A DNA stretch of 36,193 nt from Phycisphaerales bacterium (GTDB lineage: Bacteria > Planctomycetota > Phycisphaerae > Phycisphaerales > UBA1924): positions 1 through 36,193 of the forward strand of contig RECZ01000173.1 of assembly GCA_007693765.1 (NCBI GenBank). Reading direction: 5' to 3'. The stretch's first letter is position 1, and each line of letters opens with the position of its first letter. Positions 4,628 to 36,193 of the stretch are shown one piece after another. Position numbers and translations under genes: made by a program. A model generated the notes under the pieces. The model was not told the DNA's origin. It saw nothing but the letters and a program-made list of their open reading frames with translations, and did not search any database.

Positions 4628-5907
4628 AGCTCCCCGTCCTCGACATCCGTGAAGTGGTGGAACGCCAGCTCTGCACCGGCTGCGGCGCGTGCGCCTCGGT
4701 CGAGCCGGGTCGCTTCCGCATGGGGGACGCCGTCGAGTTCGGGCGTCGTCCCTTCCTTGTGGAGCGCCCCGCGCCCGAGACCGGCGACGCCCTGCGCGTA
4801 TGCCCCGGCGCGAGTCTCGAGCACACGTTCGATCGCAGCGACCCCGCCCTCGACCACGACCTGATGCCCTCGTGGGGGCCGGTGCTCGAAGTCTGGGAGG
4901 GGCACGCCGCGGCGGGTGATCTGCGCCGTGCGGGGTCGAGCGGGGGGGCGGCGTCGGCGCTGGCGCTGTTCGCGATCGAGCAGGGGGGCATGGCCGGCGT
5001 GCTGCACACGGCCGCGCGGAAAGGCGCGCCCCACCTCAACGAGACCGTCTACAGCACCACGCGGGCCGATCTGCTCGCGAACACCGGCTCGCGCTACGCC
5101 CCGGCCAGCCCGTGCGACTCGCTCGGCCTCATCGAGACGGCGCCCGCGCCCAGCGTCTTCATCGGCAAGCCCTGCGACGTCGCGGCGGCGCAGCGGGCGC
5201 GAAGACTCCGCCCGGCGCTGGACGAAAAACTCGGGCTCACCATCGCCTTCTTCTGCGCCGGGGCGCCCTCGACGCGCGGCACGCTCGAGCTCCTCCGGCG
5301 TGTGGGCGTGGAAGACCCCGCCTCGCTCAAGAGTCTGCGCTACCGCGGCGACGGCTGGCCGGGCATGTGGACCGCGGTGTGGACCGACAGCGCGGGCGAG
5401 GAACGCACCGCGCGGCTGAGCTACGCCGAGTCGTGGGACTTCCTGCAGCGCTACCGGCAGTGGCGCTGCTACATCTGCCCCGACCACACCGGCGAGTTCG
5501 CGGACATCGCCGTGGGCGACCCGTGGTACCGGCCGATCGAGGACGGCGAGCCCGGCAAATCGCTGATCGTCGCCCGTACGCCGCGCGGGCGCGACTTCCT
5601 GCACCGGGCCGCGGCGGCGGGGTACATCACGCTGGAGACCAAGGACGCCAGCCTGCTGCCCAGGTCGCAGCCGAACCTGCTCGCGACACGCGGCGGGCTG
5701 TGGGGGCGCCTCGTGGCGCTGCGTCTGCTTGGCGCACCGACGCCGCGGTACATCGGGTTCCCCATGTTCCGTGTTTGGCTGCGCCGATTGGGGCTCAAGC
5801 AGAAGACGCAATCGATCGCCGGCACGACCAAGCGCATCGGGCGCAAGCGCCTCCGCCGGCGGGTCGATGTGCGTGAGGATGACCACACGCGGAGCGCGGC
5901 GGCGTAA
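4624..5907 (+). CDS. Coenzyme F420 hydrogenase/dehydrogenase beta-subunit (FrhB) family iron-sulfur protein
   Basis: This 427-aa protein starts with GTG at 4624 inside the flippase stop codon. Near the N-terminus it has CTGCGAC (Cys17, Cys20, Cys23) plus CPG (Cys60), consistent with a 4Fe-4S site. It continues with the FrhB-family segments AGSSGGAASALALFAIEQG, SRYAPASP, VFIGKPCDVAAAQ and FFCAGAPSTRGT, and the C-terminal WRCYICPDHTGEFADIAVGDPW, which carries two more cysteines. FrhB-type proteins bind flavin and Fe-S clusters. Homologues without a hydrogenase are known in exopolysaccharide clusters, often beside pyruvyl transferases as here, where their chemistry is poorly defined. A redox step on a sugar or carrier is only an inference. 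The stop overlaps the next start by one base (TAATG). Confidence 0.88.
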   Translation: MKLPVLDIREVVERQLCTGCGACASVEPGRFRMGDAVEFGRRPFLVERPAPETGDALRVCPGASLEHTFDRSDPALDHDLMPSWGPVLEVWEGHAAAGDLRRAGSSGGAASALALFAIEQGGMAGVLHTAARKGAPHLNETVYSTTRADLLANTGSRYAPASPCDSLGLIETAPAPSVFIGKPCDVAAAQRARRLRPALDEKLGLTIAFFCAGAPSTRGTLELLRRVGVEDPASLKSLRYRGDGWPGMWTAVWTDSAGEERTARLSYAESWDFLQRYRQWRCYICPDHTGEFADIAVGDPWYRPIEDGEPGKSLIVARTPRGRDFLHRAAAAGYITLETKDASLLPRSQPNLLATRGGLWGRLVALRLLGAPTPRYIGFPMFRVWLRRLGLKQKTQSIAGTTKRIGRKRLRRRVDVREDDHTRSAAA

Positions 5908-14788: not shown

Positions 14789-15697
14789 ATGACCACAGGC
14801 AACGGACATTCTTCGGGCGGCGACCTGGCGCTCTGCGTCGTGCTCGGGGGCGGTCTGCAATCGTCGCCGCTGCAGTCGCTGTGCCATATCTCGGTGCTCG
14901 ATCTCCCGATCACGCCGGGCGTGAGCGTGCTCGATCACGTGCTCGGCCGCGTCGAAGAAGCGCACGCGGCCGCCTCGCGGTCGCTGCCGGTGCGTGTTGT
15001 CTACGGCGACCCGGTGCCGAGGCCGTCGAAGCCGGCGGCGCGTCAGGGGCTGGAGATCGAGATCGTCCGCGAAGCGAACCGGTGGCGCGGACCGGCGGGC
15101 GTGCTGCTCGACGTCTGCGATCATCTCCCGAGCGACGCGAACATCCTGGTGATCGAGGGCGCCCGCTGGTACGGCGCGCCGATCGGGCCGCTCGTTGAGG
15201 CGCACGCGCAGCGCGGCGCGGAGGTCACGATCGCGCAGGCCGCGGATCGCTCCCCGGCGGGCGTGTACGTCATCCGGCGGTCCTCGCTGGACCCGACGCC
15301 GCGGTTGGGGTTCATGGACCTGAAGGAGCAGTTGCTGGGGCGCCTGCTGGCCGAGGGGCGGCGCATCGTCGTGCATACACTCGCGACGCCGGGCACGATG
15401 CCTCTTCGATCGCTCGAGGGCTACCTGCGGGCGGGCCGGGTCGCGTCGGGTTCGAGCGGGGAATGGAGCGTTCTGGACCCCGATTGTGAGGTCGGAGAGG
15501 GGGCCGTGGTGGTATCATCGGTCATAATGAGGGGCGCCCGGATCGAACCGGGGGCGGTCGTGGCCCGTTCCATCGTGCTGGAGGGCGCCGTGATTCAGTC
15601 GGGCGCCGAGACGGTCGATTCGGTGGTGCAGCCCGGTGCGGTTCTACAGCCCCCAGACCCGTTCAGCGACCGCACAGGACGCCGAGGATCGCGATGA
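14789..15697 (+). CDS. Nucleotidyltransferase-like protein with left-handed beta-helix tail; catalytic signature lost
   Basis: This 302-aa protein looks like a sugar-1-phosphate nucleotidyltransferase followed by hexapeptide repeats. The N-terminus reads LCVVLGGGLQSSPLQ (GGGLQSS at 20-26), where active enzymes have GG-x-GTR-x-x-PLT. The Pro-Lys that follows in active enzymes is replaced around LCHISVLDLP, while the next helix (GVSVLDHVLGRV) is kept. So the phosphate-binding Arg and the catalytic Lys both appear absent. The C-terminal ~70 residues (LDPDCEVGEGAVVVSSVIM, GARIEPGAVVARSIVLEGAV) form four to five beta-helix turns. It may be a structural or regulatory pseudoenzyme. It overlaps the exosortase start (ATGA), and the sugar-phosphate transferase at 19425 carries a possibly related module. 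Confidence 0.75.
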   Translation: MTTGNGHSSGGDLALCVVLGGGLQSSPLQSLCHISVLDLPITPGVSVLDHVLGRVEEAHAAASRSLPVRVVYGDPVPRPSKPAARQGLEIEIVREANRWRGPAGVLLDVCDHLPSDANILVIEGARWYGAPIGPLVEAHAQRGAEVTIAQAADRSPAGVYVIRRSSLDPTPRLGFMDLKEQLLGRLLAEGRRIVVHTLATPGTMPLRSLEGYLRAGRVASGSSGEWSVLDPDCEVGEGAVVVSSVIMRGARIEPGAVVARSIVLEGAVIQSGAETVDSVVQPGAVLQPPDPFSDRTGRRGSR

Positions 15698-16557
15698 GGC
15701 AACAGTGGCGTTTTCTTGATGGCCTGATGATCGCGCTCTTCGTCGGGCTCGCGGTGTACGCGACCCGGAGCGTGTGGATCGATATCTTCGCGCTCGCGCT
15801 GCGCAACGACGAGAGTTCGTACATCATCCTCGCGGCGCCGGTGGCGCTGTGGCTGGGTTGGCTCCGCCGCGAGCGGATCCGCTACTGCCGTCCGAGCCCG
15901 ACCGCGCTCGGCGCAATCGTCATCCTCGCCGGGTGGGCGTTGATGGCGATCGGCAATGAGTATTCGATCGACCTCTTCCGCGACACCGGCGCTCTCGTGG
16001 CCGTGGTGGGCGCGGTGTTCACGGTGGCCGGGAAGGAGATCTTCCTGCGCTTCGCGGCGGCGTGGGGCGCGCTGCTGTTCCTGATCCCCGTCCCCGGCCG
16101 CATCCGGCACGTCATCGCCACGCCGCTTCAGGAGGCGAGCGCCGTCTCGACGCAGTTCATGCTCGATCTCTTCGCCGTCTCCGTCGAGCGCCACGGCAAC
16201 ATGCTGGTCGTCAATGGCGCAGAGGTCGCGATCGCGGAGGCGTGCAACGGCATGCGCATGGTGGCGGCGATGGCGCTGATCGCCTACGCGTTCGTCTTCT
16301 CGTTCCCGATGCGTCTCTGGGCGAGGTTGCTCCTGCTGGGGCTCAGCGTCCCCGTGGCGATCCTGGCGAACGTGGTGCGCCTCGCGCCGACCTCGATCCT
16401 CTACGGCCACTCAACGCCCGACATCGCCAACACGTTCCATGACGTGGCGGGCTGGGCGGTGCTTGGACTCGCGCTGGGCATGATGTGGCTGGTGCTGGCG
16501 CTGCTGCGCTACCTCGAACTCCCGCTCGAGCCGTTCCGCATCAGAGAGGAGGCATGA
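15694..16557 (+). CDS. Exosortase (exosortase/archaeosortase family transpeptidase-like protein)
   Basis: This 287-aa integral membrane protein has about eight hydrophobic segments. It carries the exosortase catalytic set: Cys184 in EACNGMRM, Arg229 in LANVVRLAP and His249 in TFHDVAGW, in the right order and spacing. Exosortases cut C-terminal PEP-CTERM-type tags of exported proteins at the inner membrane, and the family is tied to extracellular polysaccharide production. Most members have Ser after the catalytic Cys (EACSG); here it is Asn. EpsI follows immediately with an ATGA overlap, and three proteins with matching tags are encoded 9-12 kb downstream. It is placed inside the polysaccharide operon between the nucleotidyltransferase-like protein and the chain-length factor. 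Confidence 0.92.
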   Translation: MRQQWRFLDGLMIALFVGLAVYATRSVWIDIFALALRNDESSYIILAAPVALWLGWLRRERIRYCRPSPTALGAIVILAGWALMAIGNEYSIDLFRDTGALVAVVGAVFTVAGKEIFLRFAAAWGALLFLIPVPGRIRHVIATPLQEASAVSTQFMLDLFAVSVERHGNMLVVNGAEVAIAEACNGMRMVAAMALIAYAFVFSFPMRLWARLLLLGLSVPVAILANVVRLAPTSILYGHSTPDIANTFHDVAGWAVLGLALGMMWLVLALLRYLELPLEPFRIREEA

Positions 16558-17252
16558 TCGTGATGAACCGACGCAAAGCGATCGCATTTGTCCCCTCGCT
16601 GATCGTGCTGGTGGCGATGGCCGTCTACGGCCACGAGCCGCTTCGCGCCAGCCGCGCCGATCAGGCGTACCTCGCGGCCGTCTCGGACGCGATCTCGAGC
16701 ATCCCGTACCGGATCGGCCCATGGATCGGCGCGGACGTCGAGGCGCAGGCCCCGGCGATACGGCTGCTCAGGCCGAACAAGCTGCTGCAACGGCGGTACC
16801 TCTCGCTCGACGGTTCGCGGTCGTTCAGCCTGCTCTTCGTGCACTGCTCCGACGCCCGCGACATGCAGGGCCACTACCCGCCGGTCTGCTACCCCTCGCA
16901 CGGCTGGGTCATCAACGAAACCGAGCGCGTCGATTTCGTGCTGGGCCAGTCGCGCATCCCCGCCGTCGTCTACCGCCTCAGCGCCCTGCGTCAGGGCGAA
17001 GAGCGGACCATGACAATCCTGAATTTCTTCGCGGTGCCCTCGGATCGTGAGGCCCTTGCGGCCGATATGGCCGCGGTGAACCGCGCATCGGCGACAACCG
17101 CCCGCTCCGGCCTCGGGGCGGCCCAGTTCCAGTTGATCGTGCCGGGTCACGCGACGTCCGAGGCGATGACGACGCTGATGCTCGAGATTGGCCCGGCGAT
17201 CGAGCCGCCGATTCGGAAGGTCATACATGGTGTCGGAACCGACCTATTCTGA
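16554..17252 (+). CDS. epsI: EpsI family exosortase-associated protein
   Basis: This 232-aa protein starts with ATG 16554 inside the exosortase stop, with AGAGGAGG directly upstream as a strong ribosome binding site. ATG 16563 is an alternative start. One N-terminal membrane segment (about residues 9-25, AFVPSLIVLVAMAVYG) is followed by a domain outside the cytoplasm. The family signature is present as HYPPVCYPSHGW (His107, Cys112, Trp118), equal to the H-x-P-x-x-C-Y-P-x-x-G-W motif of EpsI/DUF3485 proteins. In many species this domain is fused to the exosortase C-terminus; here it is separate. Its role is not settled, but it is a constant partner of exosortase. The next gene begins 26 bases before its end. 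Confidence 0.9.
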   Translation: MIVMNRRKAIAFVPSLIVLVAMAVYGHEPLRASRADQAYLAAVSDAISSIPYRIGPWIGADVEAQAPAIRLLRPNKLLQRRYLSLDGSRSFSLLFVHCSDARDMQGHYPPVCYPSHGWVINETERVDFVLGQSRIPAVVYRLSALRQGEERTMTILNFFAVPSDREALAADMAAVNRASATTARSGLGAAQFQLIVPGHATSEAMTTLMLEIGPAIEPPIRKVIHGVGTDLF

Positions 17253-20886: not shown

Positions 20887-23800
20887 ATGCAGCGTCGCAC
20901 CAAGAAATTGTTGATCGTTCTCGTCGTGATCCCCGTCTTGGTGGTGGGCGCAGCCGGGGGTGCGCTCGTGCTCCGGCAGCACCAGGTGGCCAGATCGATC
21001 AACGAGGCGTACGAGCAGGGGCGTGCGGCGTACGAGGCCGAGGAGTATCAACGTGCGCTGCCGCTGCTGAGCCGCTACGTCGGTCGCAATCAGGACGACA
21101 CAGAGGCGCTGCTCATGCTCGCTGAGAGCCGCGCACGGGTGCCCACGCCCGACGGGAGCGAGCACGTCGTCGCGATACGCTTCGCCGAGGCCGCGCTCGC
21201 CAACGAGCCGAGGAACGTGCGAGCGCTGGAGATGCTCATCGGCCTTTACAGCCGCGTGAGTTTCGTGACCGAACTCAACCGCACCTGCGATCAACTGCTC
21301 GAAATCGATCCGAACCACACCGGCGCCATCCTCGCCAAGACCCGCGCGCTGATCGCGCTGGGCCGTTACGACGAGGCGCGTCGTGTCGCCGAGCGGCTGA
21401 CGGTCGAAGGTGAATCCGGCGCGCTGGCGCTGCGTCTCACGCTCGAGACGCGTCGGCTCCAGGGCGCCTCGGCGGCGGACCTCGCGGCCGAGGCCGCAGA
21501 GGCCGCGCAGCGCTGGCCCGAGGACATGGAGATCCTCGTCATACACGCCCAGTCGCTCTTCGGCGCCGGCGAGTCTGAGAAAGCGAAGGAATTGCTCACA
21601 CGCATCGCGGAGCTGCGCCCCACCAAGCTCCGCGTGATCGCCGACTACCTCCGCCTCGCCGACATCACCGGCAGCATGCTCCGTCTTGGGGCGTCCGAGA
21701 CCGCGTGGGCGCGCGACTCGGCGGCCCTCCGTGATCGCGCCCGCGCCGTCATCGAGGCCGCGATGGAGGACGAGCGTCTCGCGCCCGGAGCCGCGGCCAT
21801 TGGCGCGGGGTGGGAGTGGCGATCGCAGCGTTTCACGCAGGCCGAGCGGTGGCTCGAACGCGGCCTCGAGATCGCGCCTGCATCGGCTCATCTCCTCGGC
21901 ATGCGGGCGGTGCTCGCGCGCGACAGAGGTGAGCCGTGGTCCTCGTACGCCGATGCACTGCGGTCCTCTGATGAAATGGGCGCGAACGTATGGGTCGGGC
22001 TCATCGACGCGCTCGGGCACATCGATCGCCGGGAATGGGCAGAGGCGAGCGACCGTCTCCAGACGATCATGACGCAGACCGAGCAGAGCCTCGCCGCCGC
22101 ACAATCGTTCACCGACAGCAGCGCCGACGCGAAGCAGACGCAGGCGTCCGAGGCGCGCATCATGGCCGCGTTCTACAGCGGCTTCGTCGATCAGAACCGC
22201 GGCGATTGGCGTCTGGCGGTTCAACGCTGGGCGGCGCTCTCCGACGCCGAGCCCGCATGGACGCTGCCCCTGATCGCGGCCGCGCGGTCGCTGCTCGAGC
22301 GGGGGCAAACGCAGACAGCCTTCGACTACGCGCTCCGCGCCTTCCGCATCCGCAGCGGCGCCAGCGAGAGCATGCTCTTCGCCAGCGCGACCGTCGCGCG
22401 GCTCGAAGCAGAGGGCCCGTCCGACAACCTCTTCGCGCTCGTCACGCCGCTGCTGCAGGAGCTCGAAGCGAACGAAAACCTGCGGGGGCCCGCCCTCGTC
22501 CTGCGCGCACGCGCCGAGGCGGTCCGGCGCGATCAGGCGGCGCTCAGCGCGGCGATCGAAGCGCTGCAGGAACTCGACACCCCACCCGATGCGCAGATGC
22601 TCGCCGAGGCGATGCGACGCGTGCGCGTGTCCGGCCTCGACGGCTGGCAGACACTGCTCGCGATAACCGAGAAAGGCGGCGCAACCGCGGAATCAACGAT
22701 CTTCCGCGCGATCGAGTCCGCCGACGCCGGGCGCATCGACGAGGCGATCATGACCCTGCGCCGCGCCGCTGAAACCAACCCGGGACGCGCCGCGGCGCCC
22801 TACCGACTCCAGGAGGCCCGCGTCCTCGCCGGCGTCGGCAGGCAGGAGGAGGCGCGTGCGCTGCTCCACGCGATCTCACGCGAGCACGACGCCGACGCCG
22901 CCATTCAACTCGACATCCTCGAACAGCCCGCGGCGTGGACCGAGTCGTCGCTGGTCGAGACAGTGGTGCAGCGGTTGCGGGCCGCCTCCGGCGATGCGGG
23001 CGTGGAGTGGCGCCTCGCGGACGCGACCCGACTGCTGACGTTCGACCCGGATCCCGCCAAGGCGCAGGAAGTCATCGTCTCGCTCACCCGCATCGTGCGC
23101 GACAACCCTCAGCACGCCCAGGCGCTCTCGCTGCTGAGCGAGTGGATGCTGCTTCTCGACGATGAACGAGCGGCCATCGAGTACCTCACCCGCGCTGTGG
23201 ACGTCCGCGACTCGCCACCCTCGCTCCAGCCTCGCCTGATCGACCTCCTGCGTCAAACCGGCCGACGCGACGACGCCCGAGCGCGTCTCCGGCAGTTCGC
23301 CGACATCCAGCGCGTCTCGCCCGAGCTGCTGCGCACCCGCGCGCGCCTACTCGTGGAGTTCCGCATGACGGACCTCGCACGGCGCGATTTCGAGATCCTC
23401 TCGCGACTCGGCGCCCCCGACGACATGCTGGCGTACGCGGCCCTGCTCTTCGATCAAGGCTCCGTCAGCAGGGCGCTCGAGATCATCGAAGAGGTGCTCG
23501 CCATCCCGGGGATCGGGCGTGAACTGTTCATGGCCGGCGCAGAGTTGCTCGTCGACGCCGGTTACGCAGACCGCGCGCTCGTCCTGCTCGACGAGCGGGC
23601 GCAGGCCCAGAGCACGGGCGCGCCGGCAGCCGATCGCGGTCGGCTGCTGGAGCGCGCCGGCCGCTACGACGAGGCAGAGCGCGAGTACCGCGCGGCCGCC
23701 GAGGCCGCCGAGCAGCCCCAGCCCCACATCGAGCTCGCCCGGTACCTCATGCGTCGGGCTCGCCACGGCGAGGTGGCCGGCGTCCTGAGCGCGGCCCGCG

Positions 23801-25161
23801 CGAGGGGCGTCGTCTCGAGCGATATGGACGCGGTCGAGGTCCTCGCATCGGCGGTGTCGCAACCGCTCACCGATGAGCGTCGGCAGGCGGTCATCGACAC
23901 GATCCCCCCCGGACCGATGCGCGACCTCGCCGAGGCCACACGCTGGTACGACGCCAACCCCGGCCGCCGCGAGCAGTTCGTCGCGAGGCTCCGCCCCATC
24001 ACCGCCGAGGCCCCCGGCCTCGTCCTCGCGTGGCAGTTCCTGACATCGACGCTCATCGAGATGGGCGAAACCGAGCAGGCCGTCGCCGCCGCCCGCGCCG
24101 CGGGCAATGCCAACCCCACCTCGCCCGTCGCCGCGGGGCTGGAGGCCAACACGCTCATTCTCGCCGGCAGGGCCGCGGAGGCGAGGAGCGCGGCCGAACG
24201 CTGGCGCTCGCTCGCGACCCACCCCCTCGAACCCGTGCTCGCGCTCTCGACGATCGAGATCCGCGAGGGCCGCAAGGACGCCGCTCGCGCGATGCTCGAC
24301 GATCTCGCCCGGAACCTCGAACCCCGCGCGCAGGAGATCGACCCCGCCCTGTGGGCCGCCTTCGTGTCGAGGTACGCGCAGATCGGCGAGATCGAAAGGG
24401 CCCGCAGACTGGGCTCGAAACACGCCGCCGCCGACCTTGAATGGGCGATGGCGATGATGCTCGTGGCGGGCCGCGAGGCCACGCCCACCGACGCCGCCCG
24501 CGCGTGGCTCCGCGAGTTGGCCTCCGATGTGGCCTCGTCCGCCGACGGGCTGGCCACGCTCGCCGACGCCTACGTCGCCCTCGCCGATCGCACGGGATCG
24601 GATCAGGATTTCGAGTCCGCGATCGACGCGCTAAACCAGCGCGCCGCGCTGACGGAACGCACCACCGGCGAGCTCGTCTTCGAGGCGACGCTGCTCGAAC
24701 GCCTCCGGCGGCGCTCCGAGGCCGAATCGCTCTACCGCCGGGCGATCGCGCAGGACCCCGAGCAGTGGGTGGCACTGAACAACCTGGCCTACATGCTGCT
24801 GCGGCAGGGGGGTGCGGCGGATGAAGCGCTCGCGCTCGCCCGCCGCGCCTACGAGATCCTCGATCGGCGGGGAGCGCCGGGCCAGCTCCGTTCGAGCGTT
24901 CTGCACACGCTTGCGTTCGCGCAGCTGAAGGACGGAGACGCCGCCACGGCGCTGCAGACCGTCCGACAGTCGCTGGCGCTGGGCACGAGCACCGCGGAGA
25001 TCCTGCTCACCGAGGTCGAGGCGATCGAGGCCACCGGCGACACCGATCGGGCCCGCTCCGCCGCCGCCACGGTCGCGCGACAGATCGACGCCGGCGTGCT
25101 CACGGCGCGCGACGAAGATCGTGAGCGGCTCCGCGCCATCACCCAGCGTTTGGCCCGATAA
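20887..25161 (+). CDS. Giant membrane-anchored TPR-repeat protein
   Basis: This 1424-aa protein begins with basic residues and one membrane helix (about 9-29, LIVLVVIPVLVVGAAGGALVL), then an almost continuous array of tetratricopeptide-like helical hairpins (for example ALIALGRYDEARRVAERL, ALIALL-type loops and, near the end, EQWVALNNLAYMLLRQGG). The TPR array would lie outside the cytoplasm. Large TPR proteins are regular members of exosortase/exopolysaccharide clusters (the PrsT type), where they probably act as scaffolds for assembly or export. This one is longer than the PrsT proteins I know of (roughly 900 aa). It is the last gene of the operon, starts 34 bases after the sugar transferase (AGGGG upstream), and is followed by a terminator. 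Confidence 0.85.
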   Translation: MQRRTKKLLIVLVVIPVLVVGAAGGALVLRQHQVARSINEAYEQGRAAYEAEEYQRALPLLSRYVGRNQDDTEALLMLAESRARVPTPDGSEHVVAIRFAEAALANEPRNVRALEMLIGLYSRVSFVTELNRTCDQLLEIDPNHTGAILAKTRALIALGRYDEARRVAERLTVEGESGALALRLTLETRRLQGASAADLAAEAAEAAQRWPEDMEILVIHAQSLFGAGESEKAKELLTRIAELRPTKLRVIADYLRLADITGSMLRLGASETAWARDSAALRDRARAVIEAAMEDERLAPGAAAIGAGWEWRSQRFTQAERWLERGLEIAPASAHLLGMRAVLARDRGEPWSSYADALRSSDEMGANVWVGLIDALGHIDRREWAEASDRLQTIMTQTEQSLAAAQSFTDSSADAKQTQASEARIMAAFYSGFVDQNRGDWRLAVQRWAALSDAEPAWTLPLIAAARSLLERGQTQTAFDYALRAFRIRSGASESMLFASATVARLEAEGPSDNLFALVTPLLQELEANENLRGPALVLRARAEAVRRDQAALSAAIEALQELDTPPDAQMLAEAMRRVRVSGLDGWQTLLAITEKGGATAESTIFRAIESADAGRIDEAIMTLRRAAETNPGRAAAPYRLQEARVLAGVGRQEEARALLHAISREHDADAAIQLDILEQPAAWTESSLVETVVQRLRAASGDAGVEWRLADATRLLTFDPDPAKAQEVIVSLTRIVRDNPQHAQALSLLSEWMLLLDDERAAIEYLTRAVDVRDSPPSLQPRLIDLLRQTGRRDDARARLRQFADIQRVSPELLRTRARLLVEFRMTDLARRDFEILSRLGAPDDMLAYAALLFDQGSVSRALEIIEEVLAIPGIGRELFMAGAELLVDAGYADRALVLLDERAQAQSTGAPAADRGRLLERAGRYDEAEREYRAAAEAAEQPQPHIELARYLMRRARHGEVAGVLSAARARGVVSSDMDAVEVLASAVSQPLTDERRQAVIDTIPPGPMRDLAEATRWYDANPGRREQFVARLRPITAEAPGLVLAWQFLTSTLIEMGETEQAVAAARAAGNANPTSPVAAGLEANTLILAGRAAEARSAAERWRSLATHPLEPVLALSTIEIREGRKDAARAMLDDLARNLEPRAQEIDPALWAAFVSRYAQIGEIERARRLGSKHAAADLEWAMAMMLVAGREATPTDAARAWLRELASDVASSADGLATLADAYVALADRTGSDQDFESAIDALNQRAALTERTTGELVFEATLLERLRRRSEAESLYRRAIAQDPEQWVALNNLAYMLLRQGGAADEALALARRAYEILDRRGAPGQLRSSVLHTLAFAQLKDGDAATALQTVRQSLALGTSTAEILLTEVEAIEATGDTDRARSAAATVARQIDAGVLTARDEDRERLRAITQRLAR

Positions 25162-25629: not shown

Positions 25630-26367
25630 ATGATCAATCTTCGTTTCATGGCTGTCGCGACAGCGCTCGTGGCCACGTCGGGCGTTTCGCTCGCCGGGGT
25701 CGTTCAGGTCCAAGCCAACCCCGGCGCGCCGTGGCAGCGTGCGGACACTTCGGGCGGCGGCTTCCGGGCCACCACGATCTCCGGCTTCAACGGGGTGATG
25801 GGCGGCCGCGGCGGCACCGCGACCTCCTTCATCACGTTCTGCCTCGAGCGCAACGAGCAGCTCAGCGGCAACAACGCCCAATACAACACCGAGATCTCGA
25901 CCAGCGCCACCATGGGCGGCGGCGGCGCCATCCCCGACGGTAAGGGCGGCATGCACGACCCCATCACCGCCGTCACCGCCACCCTCTACCGCGAGTTCCG
26001 CTTCGGCGGCACCTTCGGCGGCATCGCCACCGCGGGCCTCGATAGCTCGTCGTGGTCCACCTCCCTGACGGACTCCCTCCAGCTCGCGATCTGGTTCGAA
26101 GAGGGTGAGCTCACCAACTCCTCCCTGATGAACCAGTTCACCAGCGACAACGCCGCCGTCGCGATGCACACCTGGGCCATGAACCAGGTCGCCAACCTCA
26201 ACCTCGGCCAGTACGACATCGGCAACGTCCGCGTGCTGCGGATGTTCAACGCCGACGGCAGCAACTCCCAGGACCTGCTGACGATCATCCCGCTGCCCTC
26301 CGCCGCCGGTCTGGCGTGCCTCGGGCTGATCGCGGTCGGTGGCCGCAACCGCCGCCGGGCCTTCTGA
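25630..26367 (+). CDS. Secreted protein with IPLP-type C-terminal sorting tag (paralog A)
   Basis: I set the start at ATG 25630, preceded by GAGGTGAGAG, rather than the in-frame GTG at 25621; this gives 245 aa. The N-terminus is a signal peptide (MINLRFMAVATALVATSGVSLA, cleavage probably after SLA). The body is Gly/Ser/Thr-rich, with GGGFRAT, GGRGGTATSFITFCLERNE and LQLAIWFEEGEL. It ends with a PEP-CTERM-like tag: IPLPS, a hydrophobic helix (GLACLGLIAV) and RNRRRAF. Such tags are recognised by exosortases, so the exosortase at 15694-16557 is the natural candidate processor. The function of the mature protein is unknown; extracellular matrix or surface attachment is a family-level guess. A tandem paralog follows at 26775. 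Confidence 0.88.
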   Translation: MINLRFMAVATALVATSGVSLAGVVQVQANPGAPWQRADTSGGGFRATTISGFNGVMGGRGGTATSFITFCLERNEQLSGNNAQYNTEISTSATMGGGGAIPDGKGGMHDPITAVTATLYREFRFGGTFGGIATAGLDSSSWSTSLTDSLQLAIWFEEGELTNSSLMNQFTSDNAAVAMHTWAMNQVANLNLGQYDIGNVRVLRMFNADGSNSQDLLTIIPLPSAAGLACLGLIAVGGRNRRRAF

Positions 26368-26375
26368 GACCGGCC
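26284..26375 (+). repeat. 92-bp direct repeat, copy 1 (sorting-tag region of paralog A)
   Basis: This block is identical, base for base by my reading, to 27447-27538. It covers the codons for the whole IPLP tag, the TGA stop and the next 8 bases. The flanking 5' sequence still aligns with scattered mismatches, and the 3' flank diverges at once. Confidence 0.9.
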
Positions 26376-26410
26376 CAGGCCGCCTCCAACGTTCCCGACC
26401 CATCATGGAG

Positions 26411-26441
26411 CGAGGCCCCCACCCGGGGGCCTCGTTTTTTT
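26411..26441 (+). terminator. Intrinsic terminator of paralog A
   Basis: A perfect 10-bp stem CGAGGCCCCC (26411-26420) and GGGGGCCTCG (26425-26434) closes a 4-base loop (ACCC) and is followed by seven T (26435-26441). Confidence 0.94.
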
Positions 26442-26633
26442 GAGGCGGCCACATCAACGAATGCCCGGCGACGGAAAAAGTCAGGCAGAACAGATCTTTT
26501 CCCGGCGCCGCGAGGAAAATGCGGCGCCGACGCCCGCTCGTCAGCCGCTCCTGCGCTTACCCAGACTGACACGGCGCGTTCAGTCCACGCAAAAATAATC
26601 TTCGCGATATGCCGGAATAGGGGGTGTTCGGGG

Positions 26634-26662
26634 TGGACTTTAAAAAGCCCCTAGGGTAAATT
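26634..26662 (+). promoter_or_regulatory. Candidate sigma70-like promoter of paralog B
   Basis: TGGACT (26634-26639) and TAAATT (26657-26662) each match four of six consensus bases and are exactly 17 bases apart, in a locally AT-rich stretch. The spacer contains the palindrome CCCTAGGG, a possible operator. The start codon is 112 bases further on. Confidence 0.4.
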
Positions 26663-26774
26663 ATTAGTCGGAAATCGGACCTACCTGAGCGAGAGAGTCG
26701 TGGGTGGGCCCGGGCCAGATTCGGTACGTGCCGGAGTGGTTCGGAAGCACAACAAATCGCGTGGGAGAGTGAAA

Positions 26775-27530
26775 ATGAGAGCAGCAAAGTTCCTCGTCGC
26801 AGCGGCAACCGTTGCCGTGGCAACCGCCGGCGCACACGGCGCGCAGGTGAAAATCAACACCACGCCGACGAGCGTCGGCAGCGACTTTGTCGGCGGCAAC
26901 CAAGGCGGCGGCTTCCGCGCCACCGAGCAGGGCGGGTTCATCGGCGTCATGGGCGGACGCGGCGGCGACGCCTCGTCGTTCATCACGTTCTGCCTCGAGC
27001 GGAACGAGAACCTCGCCAACAACGTGGTGTACGACACCAAGATCTCTATCTATGCGGTGGGCGGCGGTGGCGGGGCCATCCCCGATCCCGACCCGTCGAA
27101 CCCGACCGGCTTCAAGGACCCCATCACCACCGTAACCGCGGCGCTCTACCGCGAGTTCCGCAGGGGCGGCAATTTCGGCGGTACGGGTGTCCTCGCCGCT
27201 CTGTCCGGCGGCGCGTGGAGCACCGAAGCTTCGACCGCTCTGCAGCTGGCGATCTGGAAGGAAGAGGGGGAGTTCAATGCTTCTCTCACCAACCAGTTCA
27301 ACAACAACACCATGGCCCAGCTCATGCACGCATGGGGGGTCGACAACGACACGGGCTCTCTCGGCAACGTCCGTGTGCTCCAGCTCTGGGCGTCCGGTTC
27401 GCTCCCGAACCCCGGGACGGGCGATGTGCGTCAGGACGTGCTGACCATCATCCCGCTGCCCTCCGCCGCCGGTCTGGCGTGCCTCGGGCTGATCGCGGTC
27501 GGTGGCCGCAACCGCCGCCGGGCCTTCTGA
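26775..27530 (+). CDS. Secreted protein with IPLP-type C-terminal sorting tag (paralog B)
   Basis: I chose ATG 26775 (GGGAGAG just upstream) over the longer GTG-start frame at 26700, because a clean signal peptide begins here (MRAAKFLVAAATVAVATAGA-HG-AQ). The 251-aa product aligns along its length with paralog A: GGGFRATEQGG, MGGRGGDASSFITFCLERNE, GGGGAIPDPDP, TAALYREFRRGGNFGG, LQLAIWKEEGEF and SLGNVRVLQLW. It ends with the same IPLPS-helix-RNRRRAF tag. The body has diverged while the tag region is identical in DNA. The two copies probably arose by tandem duplication. As with paralog A, export by Sec and processing by the local exosortase is the likely fate, and the function is unknown. Confidence 0.88.
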   Translation: MRAAKFLVAAATVAVATAGAHGAQVKINTTPTSVGSDFVGGNQGGGFRATEQGGFIGVMGGRGGDASSFITFCLERNENLANNVVYDTKISIYAVGGGGGAIPDPDPSNPTGFKDPITTVTAALYREFRRGGNFGGTGVLAALSGGAWSTEASTALQLAIWKEEGEFNASLTNQFNNNTMAQLMHAWGVDNDTGSLGNVRVLQLWASGSLPNPGTGDVRQDVLTIIPLPSAAGLACLGLIAVGGRNRRRAF

Positions 27531-27538
27531 GACCGGCC
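27447..27538 (+). repeat. 92-bp direct repeat, copy 2 (sorting-tag region of paralog B)
   Basis: This is the second copy of the block at 26284-26375, offset by 1163 bases, with no mismatch by my reading, including all synonymous sites, the stop codon and 8 bases beyond it. Confidence 0.9.
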
Positions 27539-28102: not shown

Positions 28103-29062
28103 TCAGAGCCCGCGGCGACGACGCAACGCGATGACGCCCGTCAGGCCCGCCAGACCCAGCATCGCCGGGGTGGGCAGGGGGATGATCGTGGTTTCAAGCA
28201 TCGCCAAGGCATCCGTGAACGGGCCGTTTGCCACCTGCACCGAGCCGACGACCAGGTCGCCGACCATGGGGGTCAGGCCGGCGTAGCCGATGGGGGCGTC
28301 CTGCTCGAGCAGGGTGGTGTTGAGGAGGATCTGCCACGAGATGGGGATTCCAGCGTCGGCATCGTACTCCCAGATAAGGCGTGCGGCGTCGACGCCGGGC
28401 GTTCCGCCGGAGCGCAAAATGTGGCCGGGCTCCTGCAGGCCCATCATCTGGCCTGAGTAATCCTGCCAGACGTTGCTGTTGATGTTGAGCCACCCGGACG
28501 AGCGAACGAAGACGGTGCCGGGACCGCCGTCACTGGTGCTGGCGCCGCCATCACCGGAGCCGGGAGCGACAGTGCTGGTGGTCCACGTCGCGGCGGACGT
28601 GCCGAACTTGGCCTGCAGACGAAGGCGGCTCTCACCGTTGGCGAGAAGGTCGTTGACGCCTCCGCCGCTGAACGCGGCCCAACCGGCAGCCGCGGCGGCG
28701 ATATCGGCGAACGAGCCGCCGTAGCCGATGACGGTGTGCCCAACGTCCCAAGTCCGGGCGGAGGTCGTGTCCCACTGGTTGCTGGGGGAGGGGATTTTGT
28801 AGTACCCGTCGTACGCGGCGCCGTCGTGCCCGGCGAGGGAGAAGGCTGAGCTGTCATTGACGGTGAAGCTCGTGGTGTACATGTTGAAGCCGAGGTTGGC
28901 GCTGCCGCGCGAGTAGTTCCCGGCTTGCAACGAGTGTCCGGCGAACTGCCAGCCGTCGGCGGCGGGGTTCCCCGTAAGCGTGTGGGCGTTGACGGTCGCG
29001 GCGCCGACGGCGGCCGTTGCGGCGGCGACGAGCGCCCGGGCGGTGATGGATGTTCTGGCCAT
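28103..29062 (-). CDS. Secreted protein with a second IPLP-type C-terminal sorting tag
   Basis: I set the start at the ATG ending at 29062 (MARTSITARAL), with GGAGAG upstream; the open frame extends to 29509 but that part is not protein-like. The 319-aa product has a signal peptide (ALVAAATAAVGAATVNAHT) and a body rich in Gly, Ser, Trp and Asn (NPAADGWQFAGHSLQAGNY, WDVGHTVIGYGGSFADIAA). It ends with IPLPTPAMLGLAGLTGVIAL then RRRRGL. The tag has the same plan as in the two plus-strand paralogs but a different helix sequence, and the body is unrelated. It is a likely exosortase substrate of unknown function. The C-terminus is complete and a strong terminator follows. Confidence 0.88.
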   Translation of the reverse strand: MARTSITARALVAAATAAVGAATVNAHTLTGNPAADGWQFAGHSLQAGNYSRGSANLGFNMYTTSFTVNDSSAFSLAGHDGAAYDGYYKIPSPSNQWDTTSARTWDVGHTVIGYGGSFADIAAAAAGWAAFSGGGVNDLLANGESRLRLQAKFGTSAATWTTSTVAPGSGDGGASTSDGGPGTVFVRSSGWLNINSNVWQDYSGQMMGLQEPGHILRSGGTPGVDAARLIWEYDADAGIPISWQILLNTTLLEQDAPIGYAGLTPMVGDLVVGSVQVANGPFTDALAMLETTIIPLPTPAMLGLAGLTGVIALRRRRGL

Positions 29063-29184
29063 GATCTGGGTCTCTCCGAGGCAGGGGGGGCGGTCCCGAC
29101 GAGGGGGTCTGCAGCCCCACGAGGGCTCGTGATGCGTTGAGCACGAGCGCGTCCACGCGACAAACGGGGACGCCAAGTAGAGAT

Positions 29185-29213
29185 AATGTATCCGGATTCT
29201 GATATTTAGCCAA
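29185..29213 (-). promoter_or_regulatory. Candidate sigma70-like promoter for the minus-strand tagged-protein gene
   Basis: On the minus strand, TTGGCT (29213-29208) and TACATT (29190-29185) each match four of six consensus bases with a 17-base spacer, inside the AT-rich island. The leader to the ATG would be about 115 bases, similar to that of paralog B. Confidence 0.4.
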
Positions 29214-29377
29214 ACTAAATTCACAATATTTCGTTCAATATGAACGGCCGACGGGCAGTGCGGCCTCCGTGTCGGAGCCGATAACCAGACCCAGACGTCG
29301 CCGGAGCATTCGGGCAGGGCAGTGGCCGCATCGCCGCGGCCTGCGCTCCGTCCGCGGCTAACGGTCATCTGTCCAAC

Positions 29378-29425
29378 CCCGAACGCGATCAGAACGAGAT
29401 CGAGGTCGTTGGAGTCGACCCCACC
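29378..29425 (-). pseudogene. Possible relic of a dockerin/EF-hand-like C-terminal repeat
   Basis: The minus-strand frame reads GGVDSNDLDLVLIAFG, close in pattern to the repeats at the end of the subtilase in this window (GVVDFADLSLVLGSFG). Sequence on either side is not protein-like and no stop follows directly, so it is at most a decayed 3' fragment. A 16-residue match may also be chance. Confidence 0.25.
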
Positions 29426-29635
29426 GGGCCGCGCCGGGGTCCGTCTGTTCCGGTTGCGCGGGGGAGACGGCTCGTGGCACGTCGGGGATGCGGCCGCGTG
29501 GGGTCGCACGCTTCAGGAGGGATGGGGGGCGGTCGATGCTCGACTCCGATGGCTGTCGGAGGGTCGGGGACGGCGCAGCGTGCGCACCCCACCGCTCCTG
29601 GACCACACGAGTCTCCGCGAGCGAGGAAAACGCAC

Positions 29636-32600: not shown

Positions 32601-35600
32601 TCAGCGGTGCTCGACCCAGCAGTCCGTGCCGAAGGCGCCCAGCACGAGGCTGAGGTCGGCGAAGTCGATCACGCCGTCGCCGTTGACGTCGCCCGGCAAC
32701 GAATCGCCCGTCGCGCCGAACGAGCCCAGCACGAGGCTGAGGTCGGCGAAGTCGACCACGCCGTCGCCGTTGGCGTCGCCGGGGCACGGCGGCAGCGGCG
32801 CGAAGGCGCGGATGCCGACGTCGTCGATGTTCCAGCCGTGGTACGTGACGGTGGAGTCCGTCGGGCCCATGCCCCACCGCAGGTAGACCGTCGCCTCGCC
32901 GTCGGCGACGCCGGAGATGTTGTACGTCTGCAGCGACCAGGACTGCTCGTTGATCGTCGGCTGCGAGGGCGTGTCGTGCACCCACACATCGACCCAGTTC
33001 ACGCCGTCGTTGCTCGCCTGGAAACGCGCCTTGTCGAACTGCGAGGCCTCCACGCCCAGCCAGCGCCGGAACTTCACCATCGTGCCGCTCAGTTCGGAGC
33101 AATCGATCGCCGTCGTGGTCAGCCACTCCGTCGTCGTCATGCTGTTGGGGTAGTGCCCGTTGCCGACGGTCAGGTTGTAGCCGTACACGTTGTCACCCGT
33201 GAAGCCGCTGACCGGGTCGAAACGCCCCGAGGTGCCCAGGCCTTGCGGAACGCCGAATTCCCACAGGCCCTCCATCGCCCAACCCGGGTCGGTGTCCATG
33301 TTCCAGAAGTACACGAGGTCGCGGTCGCCGATCTCCATCAGCACCGTGCCGATGTTCGAATCGCCGCCGTCCGGGGGCGTGCCGCCGTCGTTGGCGCGGA
33401 AACCGAACGACGCCGGGCCGCGGTAGTTGAACTGCGGCGTGTAGAGCACCTCGTCGCCGAACGCGGCGAGGGTGTAGGGCACGGCGGTGATCGGCCCCGC
33501 GTTCGGGTCGCTCAGCGAGCCCGTCGTCGGGAGCGACTGGACGATGTACGTCAGCACGCCGGGGTCCTTGGGCAGGCCGTCGTCGGTCGCCTGAAGCGTG
33601 ATCAGCGTCGGGGTGTTGAGGTCGATGGTCTCGAACGAGTTCTGCGCGATCGGCGGGCGCGGCCCGCAGGCGCTGTACGACGAGAGATCGCTCATGAAGA
33701 AGTCCACCGGCACGCCGCCGCCCGCGGACAGCCCCGCGAGCCCGTCGTTCGCCGAGAGTTCGAGCCACGTGATGACGATCGTCCCATCGAAGTGCATCTG
33801 CACCTGGAACGTGTTCGACGTGCCCGCGGCGGCGAACTCCGGCACGTTCACCCACGACACCACGACGCGGTCGCTCAGCACGAGGTACGAGGCCTCGCCC
33901 GTGGTGCGCAGGTCGAGATCGTCAAAGAGCGCCGAGATGCGCGGCTGGTTGAAGTGGTTCGCCAGCGACTCGGTGAACGTCGTGTTGCCGGAGTTGAACG
34001 TGATGTACCCGTTGGTGCCGACCCAGAAGCGGTCGTAGGACACGCCGTAGAGCGAGACCTCGACGCCCGTGGGCAGGTTCACCAGCGCGAAGCCGTCGAG
34101 GAAGTTGGGCGTCCCCGAGGCGTTCACGAAGCTCAGCGCCGTGCCGCCCGTCGGGTCGACCGGCAGCGCGCTGATCGAGTCCTCGAAGCAGGCGTCGTAC
34201 GCGTCGACGGAGGCGCTGGGCGAGAGCGTGATCGTGGAGAAGGCGAGGTCGTTGGGGTTGCCCGTCGGGGTGAAGAGTTCGGTGAAGTAATCCGGGATCT
34301 GCGGTGTGGCGAACGTGTGGCACACGCCGCTGTTGTCGTTGAAGCCCTCGTTGCCCGCGCTGTCGGTCGCCTCGACGCGGAAGAAGTAGGTGGTGTTGGT
34401 CTGCAGGCCCAGCAGGTTCGCGGTGTGCGAGGTCTGCGTGCCCGGCGTGTTGGCGACCCCGGTGAACGTGCCGCACACCGTGCCATAGACCACGCGCGCC
34501 GTCGCCGGCTCATTGGTGGTGAAAGTAATGCGGGCGTCGCGCGGGTTGATGTCGGCGACCAGCACGTCGCTGATGACGGGGGCGACGCAGTCGATCGCCG
34601 CCATGCCCACGCGGGGGATGTTCGTTCCGCCCATGCCGTCGTCGGCGTCGATGTAGGTCACGGTGATGGTGTCGCCGTGGGCCACCAGCAGCGCGCCGGG
34701 GGTGGGCGTGGTGCTGAGCGGCAGGTCGGCGCGGAAATCGGCCGTCAGTTCGCCCGTCTCGGTGAGCGTGATCATGAAGCCCGCGGGATCGCTGTCGGAC
34801 ATCACGTGCACATCCACCGTCTCGATCTTGTCGTCATCGGTGTTCAGGTCGCAGTCGACGACCTGCACGTTCACCACGGCGTCGCACGAGAAGACCTGAC
34901 GGTTGAACTTCGCCAGACCCACCGTCGAGCAGTTCACCAGGAAGGGCGAAGCGCTGAGCGAGAACGCCTGCGGCCCTTGCGGCACGCTGAAGCCCAGCAC
35001 CTGCACCGACCACACGCCGGGCGTCGGGTTCTCGACGAACACCTGCTCGACGTTGTTGATGCGGTCGACCTGCGTGCGCACCGCGGGGTTGGCGGGGTTG
35101 GCGGGGTCGAGCGTCCACGGGTAGTGGCGCACGCCGTTCGGGTCCGTCACCACGAGGTCGAGGTCGTTCACCAGCGAGGGGTAGACGTTGGGCGTGCCGG
35201 CGGGGTCGTCCCACACCAGTGTGGCCTTGAACTCCTGCCCCGCGTCCACGTTCACCAGCACGTTGTACGTCTCGCCCTGCCCGACGGAAGCCTCGAGGAA
35301 GTTGCCCGAGCGCAGGTGCTCGATCGCCGGCTGCACACGGATGGAGCCATATCCCGTCTTGTAGTCGGGGCCGAAGTTCTCGATGTCCTCGGCGGTGTGG
35401 ATGAGGAACGCCTTGTACGTCGAGGGCAGCGGGTCCGGCTCGCCGGAGTACTGCACACGGAAGTCTTCGAGGATCAGCGCGATGGCGCCCGTCGCGGTGG
35501 GGGCGGCCATCGAGGTGCCGCACGCGCTGCCGTAGGACGTGTCGCTGGCGCTGGTGCTCGACGAGACGGTGCTGTTGCCGCCGTTCCAGTCCGGGCCGGC

Positions 35601-36193
35601 CGCGTCGGGGCCGTTCTGGCAGCCGGGCGCGGCGACGTCCGGCTTCAGACGGCCATCGGTCGTCGGCCCCCAACTGGTGAAGTTTGTCACCGCGTCGTTG
35701 TTCGAGTGCAGCGCGCCCACCGTGATGTGGTTCTTGGCGTTGGCCGGGGGCGCCGTGGTGCCGTAGCCGGTGCCGCACCGCCCGTTGCCGCGCTCGTTGC
35801 CCGCGGCGAAGACGATGCTGATCGTCGGGCCGAAGGCGCCCCGGGCGATCGAGTCGATGACGGTGGAGGTCACGCCGTACTCGCCGTGCCACGAGCAGGG
35901 GAAGTTGTTGGCGGCGACGTTGGTGCCGATGGAGTTGTTCGCGATCGCCGCGCCCCAGTTGTTGATGGCGTCGTCGTAGTCATCCTCCATATCACCCGGG
36001 TCGGTGTAGAGGAAGCCCTGCTGCAGCCCGCCCGGCTGCTGGAAGCCGTACGACTGGATGGTGACGCCCGGCGCCATGCCGCGGTATGTGCCGCCGCTGG
36101 CGTTGCCGCCGCCGCCGACTGTCCCCGAGACGTGCGTGGCGTGGCTGGAGAGGTTGGAGTTGTCACGGATGAACAGGCGTCCTTCGAAGTCCA
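32601..36193 (-). CDS. Multidomain secreted subtilase (S8) with dockerin-like C-terminus, 5' partial
   Basis: The frame is open to the right edge, so the N-terminus is missing here; ATG 36077 is internal. The 38 residues before that ATG include SSHATHVSGTVGG, the active-site His motif. Counting from ATG 36077, FAAGNERGNG holds the oxyanion Asn94 and ACGTSMAAP the catalytic Ser189; the Asp lies outside the window. A beta-sandwich typical of Kp43-like subtilases follows (ATLVWDDPAGTP, NDLDLVVTDPNG), then a fibronectin-III-like part (ARITFTTNEPATARVVYG), a NIDO-like region (ISALFDDLDLRTTGEASYLV), a cadherin/Ig-like part and a MAM/InhA-like sandwich (WNMDTDPGWAMEGLWEFGVP). Two calcium-binding GDxNGDG repeats end it. 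It is probably an extracellular protease; substrate unknown. Confidence 0.9.
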   Translation of the reverse strand, partial: DFEGRLFIRDNSNLSSHATHVSGTVGGGGNASGGTYRGMAPGVTIQSYGFQQPGGLQQGFLYTDPGDMEDDYDDAINNWGAAIANNSIGTNVAANNFPCSWHGEYGVTSTVIDSIARGAFGPTISIVFAAGNERGNGRCGTGYGTTAPPANAKNHITVGALHSNNDAVTNFTSWGPTTDGRLKPDVAAPGCQNGPDAAGPDWNGGNSTVSSSTSASDTSYGSACGTSMAAPTATGAIALILEDFRVQYSGEPDPLPSTYKAFLIHTAEDIENFGPDYKTGYGSIRVQPAIEHLRSGNFLEASVGQGETYNVLVNVDAGQEFKATLVWDDPAGTPNVYPSLVNDLDLVVTDPNGVRHYPWTLDPANPANPAVRTQVDRINNVEQVFVENPTPGVWSVQVLGFSVPQGPQAFSLSASPFLVNCSTVGLAKFNRQVFSCDAVVNVQVVDCDLNTDDDKIETVDVHVMSDSDPAGFMITLTETGELTADFRADLPLSTTPTPGALLVAHGDTITVTYIDADDGMGGTNIPRVGMAAIDCVAPVISDVLVADINPRDARITFTTNEPATARVVYGTVCGTFTGVANTPGTQTSHTANLLGLQTNTTYFFRVEATDSAGNEGFNDNSGVCHTFATPQIPDYFTELFTPTGNPNDLAFSTITLSPSASVDAYDACFEDSISALPVDPTGGTALSFVNASGTPNFLDGFALVNLPTGVEVSLYGVSYDRFWVGTNGYITFNSGNTTFTESLANHFNQPRISALFDDLDLRTTGEASYLVLSDRVVVSWVNVPEFAAAGTSNTFQVQMHFDGTIVITWLELSANDGLAGLSAGGGVPVDFFMSDLSSYSACGPRPPIAQNSFETIDLNTPTLITLQATDDGLPKDPGVLTYIVQSLPTTGSLSDPNAGPITAVPYTLAAFGDEVLYTPQFNYRGPASFGFRANDGGTPPDGGDSNIGTVLMEIGDRDLVYFWNMDTDPGWAMEGLWEFGVPQGLGTSGRFDPVSGFTGDNVYGYNLTVGNGHYPNSMTTTEWLTTTAIDCSELSGTMVKFRRWLGVEASQFDKARFQASNDGVNWVDVWVHDTPSQPTINEQSWSLQTYNISGVADGEATVYLRWGMGPTDSTVTYHGWNIDDVGIRAFAPLPPCPGDANGDGVVDFADLSLVLGSFGATGDSLPGDVNGDGVIDFADLSLVLGAFGTDCWVEHR
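32638..32693 (-). repeat. Tandem dockerin/EF-hand-like repeat, copy nearest the C-terminus
   Basis: This 56-bp block repeats at 32725-32780 (87-base period, 29 codons) with two mismatches. It encodes GDVNGDGVIDFADLSLVLG, with Asp/Asn calcium ligands in the DxNxDGxxDxxD pattern. Confidence 0.85.
32725..32780 (-). repeat. Tandem dockerin/EF-hand-like repeat, first copy
   Basis: Partner of the block at 32638-32693. It encodes GDANGDGVVDFADLSLVLG. The low DNA divergence suggests recent duplication or homogenisation within the gene. Confidence 0.85.

Follow-up and report, generated by a model that had tools for sequence, protein, structure and literature searches.

The window analysed here, the whole 36,193-nucleotide stretch of DNA, is an entire contig (C7) of the draft genome of a Phycisphaerales bacterium (G000; 2.9 Mb in 176 contigs) and carries a locus of the exopolysaccharide/exosortase type. 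On its forward strand lie an exosortase gene (15694-16554; PF09721, 162.5 bits; TIGR02602, 124 bits, over the cut-off), a gene for an exosortase-associated, EpsI-like protein (16485-17252; DUF3485, PF11984) and one for a large TPR protein (20887-25161) that resembles the PrsT of PEP-CTERM/exosortase loci, with a TIGR02917 score of 130 bits that does not reach the cut-off of 312; a chain-length/tyrosine-kinase-like gene is also present. Just downstream of this locus, about 10 kb from the exosortase gene, sit two tandem genes on the same strand, 1163 bp apart: gene 1 (25630-26367, forward strand, 245 aa) and gene 2 (26775-27530, forward strand, 251 aa). Both translations begin with an N-terminal signal peptide and end in P-x-P, a hydrophobic stretch and a basic end, which we refer to as the tag. 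A third gene with a tag of the same IPLP type (28103-29509, reverse strand) has an unrelated body and does not share its tag DNA with the pair. Two tag styles occur in the genome, the IPLP type on C7 and C87 and a IPTPGAAALLGL type on most other contigs, and there are two exosortases, one in the window and the other on C98; it is possible that each tag style is paired with its own exosortase. Further along the window, the 3' end of a subtilase-like open reading frame (32604-36077, reverse strand) holds a direct repeat (32625-32696 and 32712-32783; 72 bp, 92%) and has a match to the NCBIfam GC-type dockerin that falls under the cut-off.

The tags resemble those of the PEP-CTERM/exosortase (EpsH) system (Haft et al. 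2006; PMC1569441) in several features, namely P-x-P, a hydrophobic stretch and an arginine-rich C-terminus, the proximity of exosortase, EpsI-like and EPS genes, and the presence of many tags per genome. They differ in that the IPLP-type tag scores just below the Pfam PEP-CTERM cut-off: with PF07589 the whole window proteins reach 14.2 and 14.1 bits (18.5 in the genome search) against a curated cut-off of 20.7, a value that the genome's PEP-CTERM genes all fail to reach. The P-x-P itself is kept in 63/63 relatives. Both gene products are predicted exosortase substrates, and the exosortase of the window is the likely enzyme to process their tags.

Ahead of the tag, the bodies look like thioester domains (TEDs), which have been described from Gram-positive LPXTG proteins (PMC4450167). 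In those adhesins three motifs, FC(L)E, LQ(xx)IW and QDxL, were defined, and the thioester bond joins the Cys of the first motif to the Gln of the last (PMC4450167). The same three motifs are found in the same order here, as Cys71 (FC), Gln151/Trp155 (Q..IW) and Gln214 (QDxL), so that by this rule the putative thioester pair would be Cys71 and Gln214; among 63 family members C71 is conserved in 56, Q151 in 60, W155 in all 63 and Q214 in 56. Whereas the TED adhesins are LPXTG-anchored, Gram-positive and mostly equipped with stalk domains (PMC4450167), the window proteins are short, have their last motif directly before the exosortase tag (Gln214 lies six residues ahead of it) and score below the Pfam cut-off, with PF08341 giving 16.1 bits for gene 2 against a cut-off of 22 and no match for gene 1. 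Across the family this model matches 13 of 36 members at E values up to 1, the best being 5e-5, and a structure model of the window proteins (pLDDT 31) was too poor for use. Taking one representative TED-like gene per genome, the distance to an exosortase gene is at most 35 kb in 20/29 genomes and at most 13 kb in 16/29, so this proximity is kept in most relatives that have TED-like genes. The domain resemblance and the gene neighbourhood suggest putative covalent-adhesin-like surface proteins that would be served by the nearby exosortase. Downstream of a TED-like gene of one relative (L094, G010:C4, 9543-11415) there are several short near-perfect inverted repeats of 28-41 bp (88-100%).

The two genes share a 92-bp block of exactly identical DNA (26284-26375 and 27447-27538, forward strand, offset 1163), which is confined to the sorting tag: it comprises the tag codons IIPLPSAAGLACLGLIAVGGRNRRRAF, the stop codon TGA and 8 bases beyond. 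The initial annotation had let this identity begin at the IPLP codons and continue past the stop for 8 bases; this is right, except that the block begins one Ile codon earlier. If the codons just upstream are included, the match extends to 105/107 bases (26269-26375 against 27432-27538, forward strand). A genome-wide search recovered the 92-mer just twice in 2.9 Mb, with no copies beyond these two genes. The identity far exceeds what the rest of the genes would predict, given that the bodies share 112/205 aligned residues (55% in protein), that 72/106 of their degenerate codons for the same residue are identical (73/108 with a slightly different alignment; about 68%), and that their divergence by the NG86 method is dS 0.77 and dN 0.43. 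The tag codons, in turn, are identical throughout, even at two glycines encoded by GGT (usage 0.07). Given how far the bodies have diverged, the probability that all 27 codons would be identical is 10^-5.8 with codon usage taken from the other genes of the window, and for 26 tag codons it is 6.4e-7 with codon usage taken from the bodies of tag genes in this genome; the chance of 8 matching bases past the stop is 3e-5.

It had been argued from the start that protein constraint on a tag could not account for this pattern, and the relatives, which carry many tandem arrays of this protein family, allow that argument to be made quantitatively. In 49 other within-locus pairs there were 501 tag codon matches against 479 expected from the bodies, so that protein constraint does not account for the identity; of all 50 pairs, from the window and its relatives, the one in the window stands out most strongly (P 6.4e-7). 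In most tandem pairs the tags have not been homogenised, and between genomes tag codons match less often than body codons (0.42 vs 0.54), so the idea that tags are under generally stronger silent-site conservation was rejected. Weaker tag-region tracts do occur in two further tandem pairs of this genome, on C75 (50 bp exact, 19/21 codons) and on C58 (94 bp at 92.5%). The same comparisons bear on whether selection on the tag DNA or RNA, through a structure, codon usage, a binding site or an overlapping gene, might hold both copies identical. The presence of the block in both genes and its reach past the stop would be in keeping with such selection. Against it, however, no folding signal was found in the block relative to shuffled sequence (z = +0.66), the tag codons of other tandem pairs are no more alike than those of their bodies, those compared across genomes are less so, and two rare codons lie inside the block; we therefore give this explanation very little credence.

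An artefact of assembly or read correction, which had been named as a reason to doubt the block, also appears very improbable. The genome is a draft, and two of its contigs, C55 (5808-5878) and C58 (69900-69993), terminate within or 5 bp beyond a tag nearly identical to another, such that breaks in the assembly may conceal additional copies. However, the two copies of the block studied here share a contig but have different flanks, a collapsed repeat would interrupt a contig and not generate identity within it, and the same phenomenon is seen in a relative whose genome is a single contig (G326, discussed below).

We consider it probable, on the strength of these comparisons, that the block is the product of a short, recent gene conversion limited to the tag, although the copying process itself is something we infer. 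Gene 1 and gene 2 would be tandem paralogues of long standing that encode thioester-domain-like surface proteins targeted by an exosortase; between their 3' ends a recent, non-reciprocal recombination would have taken place, seeded by tag DNA that was already similar. The copied tract would have measured some 92-107 bp and would have transferred the complete tag, together with the 8 bp that follow the stop, from one of the genes to its partner; for the proteins the consequence was probably slight, in that both tags would remain readable by the same exosortase. This reading is favoured because the genes are in tandem and in the same orientation, are only 1.16 kb apart, offer a conserved tag as a starting point, and show a tract that stops near the end of the homology; it also agrees with the suggestion of local recombination that accompanied the first description of the block. 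Silent-site identity rises sharply within the block above the divergence of the remainder of the paralogues, as expected of a conversion tract. Two observations speak against this reading: most tandem pairs have tags that were not made alike, and the 3' end of the tract runs 8 bp into otherwise dissimilar DNA, which simple homologous conversion does not require. Work on tufA/tufB has assumed that conversion does not reach beyond the repeated region (PMC5485169); these 8 bp may represent old homology or a small overrun. The tuf case is alike in presenting a continuous identical block in two paralogues of one chromosome, with a tract that ends near the ends of the homology (PMC5485169). It is unlike the present one in that the tuf genes are near-identical throughout, whereas the window genes have drifted far apart and are homogenised in the sorting tag alone.

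Tag identity of this kind recurs between neighbouring genes of relatives, as emerged from a survey that covered 257 tag genes, compared in 988 pairs within genomes, after genes counted twice because their loci overlap had been removed. Besides the window pair, three neighbouring pairs reached P<1e-6, with no significant protein similarity in their bodies and with near-identical tag DNA whose start is no more than a few bases from that of the tag. In G326 (C1, 1281020/1281892) the match is 64/65 bp; it begins with base two of the codon that opens the tag and stops 6 bp before the stop. The G195 pair (C67, 840/33) matches over 98/106 bp, but its signal-peptide DNA is also 82% alike over 60 bp, so this pair is possibly a remote duplicate. 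For the G160 pair (C5, 1259/121; 72/75 bp), remote homology is possible in view of a very weak protein match (E 0.03). Two apparent DNA matches between bodies proved to be overlapping open frames of the same DNA and were discarded as homology. Among pairs with unrelated bodies, P<1e-4 was found for 3/87 neighbours and 0/737 non-neighbours (Fisher 0.0011), an excess that should be taken as an indication and not as the result of a random survey, given that the set is enriched for neighbouring tags, that the pairs are non-independent and that some "unrelated" bodies may be remote homologues.

These data also bear on the proposal that the tag moves as a cassette. The 92-mer is on no other gene of this genome, but near-identical tag DNA on neighbours with unrelated or saturated bodies does exist in three relatives. 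In its strong form, in which a dedicated element would carry the tag around the genome as a freely moving unit, the proposal draws on three genomes, G326, G195 and G160, where unrelated neighbours have the same tag DNA, on related tag DNA on further contigs of G160, and on the tags of unrelated proteins in the window's genome, whose position-specific codon sharing is in weak excess (0.540 vs 0.497). About half of that excess recurs in the cross-genome control, however, and we rejected a wholesale genome-wide spread of one tag DNA on these grounds. With near-identical pairs concentrated among neighbours, no element borders noticed and the 92-mer confined to two genes, such a mobile element seems highly doubtful. 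A search of the GTDB contig collection for close relatives gave one distant Verrucomicrobia as its sole match.

If tags are overwritten within a genome, the tags of orthologues in sister species should be more different than their bodies suggest. A slight effect of this kind was seen in 45 close cross-genome pairs, where 501/857 tag codons match against 547 expected from the bodies. A single gene of G160 (C28:58986) illustrates the point: compared with its syntenic orthologue in the congeneric species G378, its body is 87% identical (131/169 codons the same), whereas the tags have only 10/22 codons and 56/69 bases in common, and within G160 itself the tag of an unrelated protein comes closer to this one, with 62/69 bases alike. 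The adjoining syntenic gene shows the opposite pattern. Here (L303, G160:C28, about 4880-5609, and L301, G378:C282, about 912-1629) the body has a protein identity of about 44-47%, and the signal peptide with its 5' flank and the tag with its 3' flank are kept at about 90-100% DNA identity, such that these PEP-CTERM genes have constant ends and a variable middle. Taken together, orthologue tags that have diverged too far in one gene and a body changed behind a kept tag in its neighbour suggest that recombination acts at the junction between body and tag, which appears to be a boundary at which the two can be parted in either direction.

It is precisely this second gene that makes body replacement the main rival to gene conversion in the window. 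Under that explanation the gene ends were duplicated recently and one body was then swapped by recombination for a divergent one, leaving the tag as a relic; the signal-peptide DNA which the G195 pair has in common besides its tag could be understood in the same way. The window pair, however, has neither similar 5' regions nor similar signal peptides, its 3' flanks cease to match 8 bp beyond the stop, and its bodies align along their length as ordinary tandem paralogues do, and so we regard body replacement as unlikely for these two genes.

Whether conversion in the window represents a wider phenomenon is a more tentative matter. It is possible, though we would not yet call it probable, that in this bacterial family the body/tag junction is a recurrent recombination boundary, across which tags are copied to neighbours, including those with unrelated bodies, and behind which bodies are exchanged while the tag remains constant. 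Gene conversion as such is already known, as is the modular, species-wise likeness of PEP-CTERM tags, which the 2006 description presents as a modular domain more alike within than between species (PMC1569441). The copying of tags between neighbours at the DNA level is not described in the portions of Haft et al. (2006; PMC1569441) that deal with this likeness, and a search of a limited literature found no paper that links PEP-CTERM to either gene conversion or thioester domains, nor one that reports tag-confined DNA tracts as a visible process, although a search of this scope is no proof of novelty.

Protein sequence alone does not reveal how the within-species likeness of PEP-CTERM tags arises. 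If the reading given above is true, it would supply a mechanism at the DNA level both for this likeness and for the modular spread of the tags, and it would offer new proteins a way into the set of exosortase substrates. It is plausible that new proteins gain exosortase recognition through tag copying, but since every gene compared was already tagged, the overwriting of an existing tag is sufficient to account for the data. The combination of tag-confined DNA identity between neighbours and over-diverged tags in orthologues means that strain collections could be used to test the process of spread. Such events would also account for the rebuilding of a surface-protein repertoire that one exosortase can still read.
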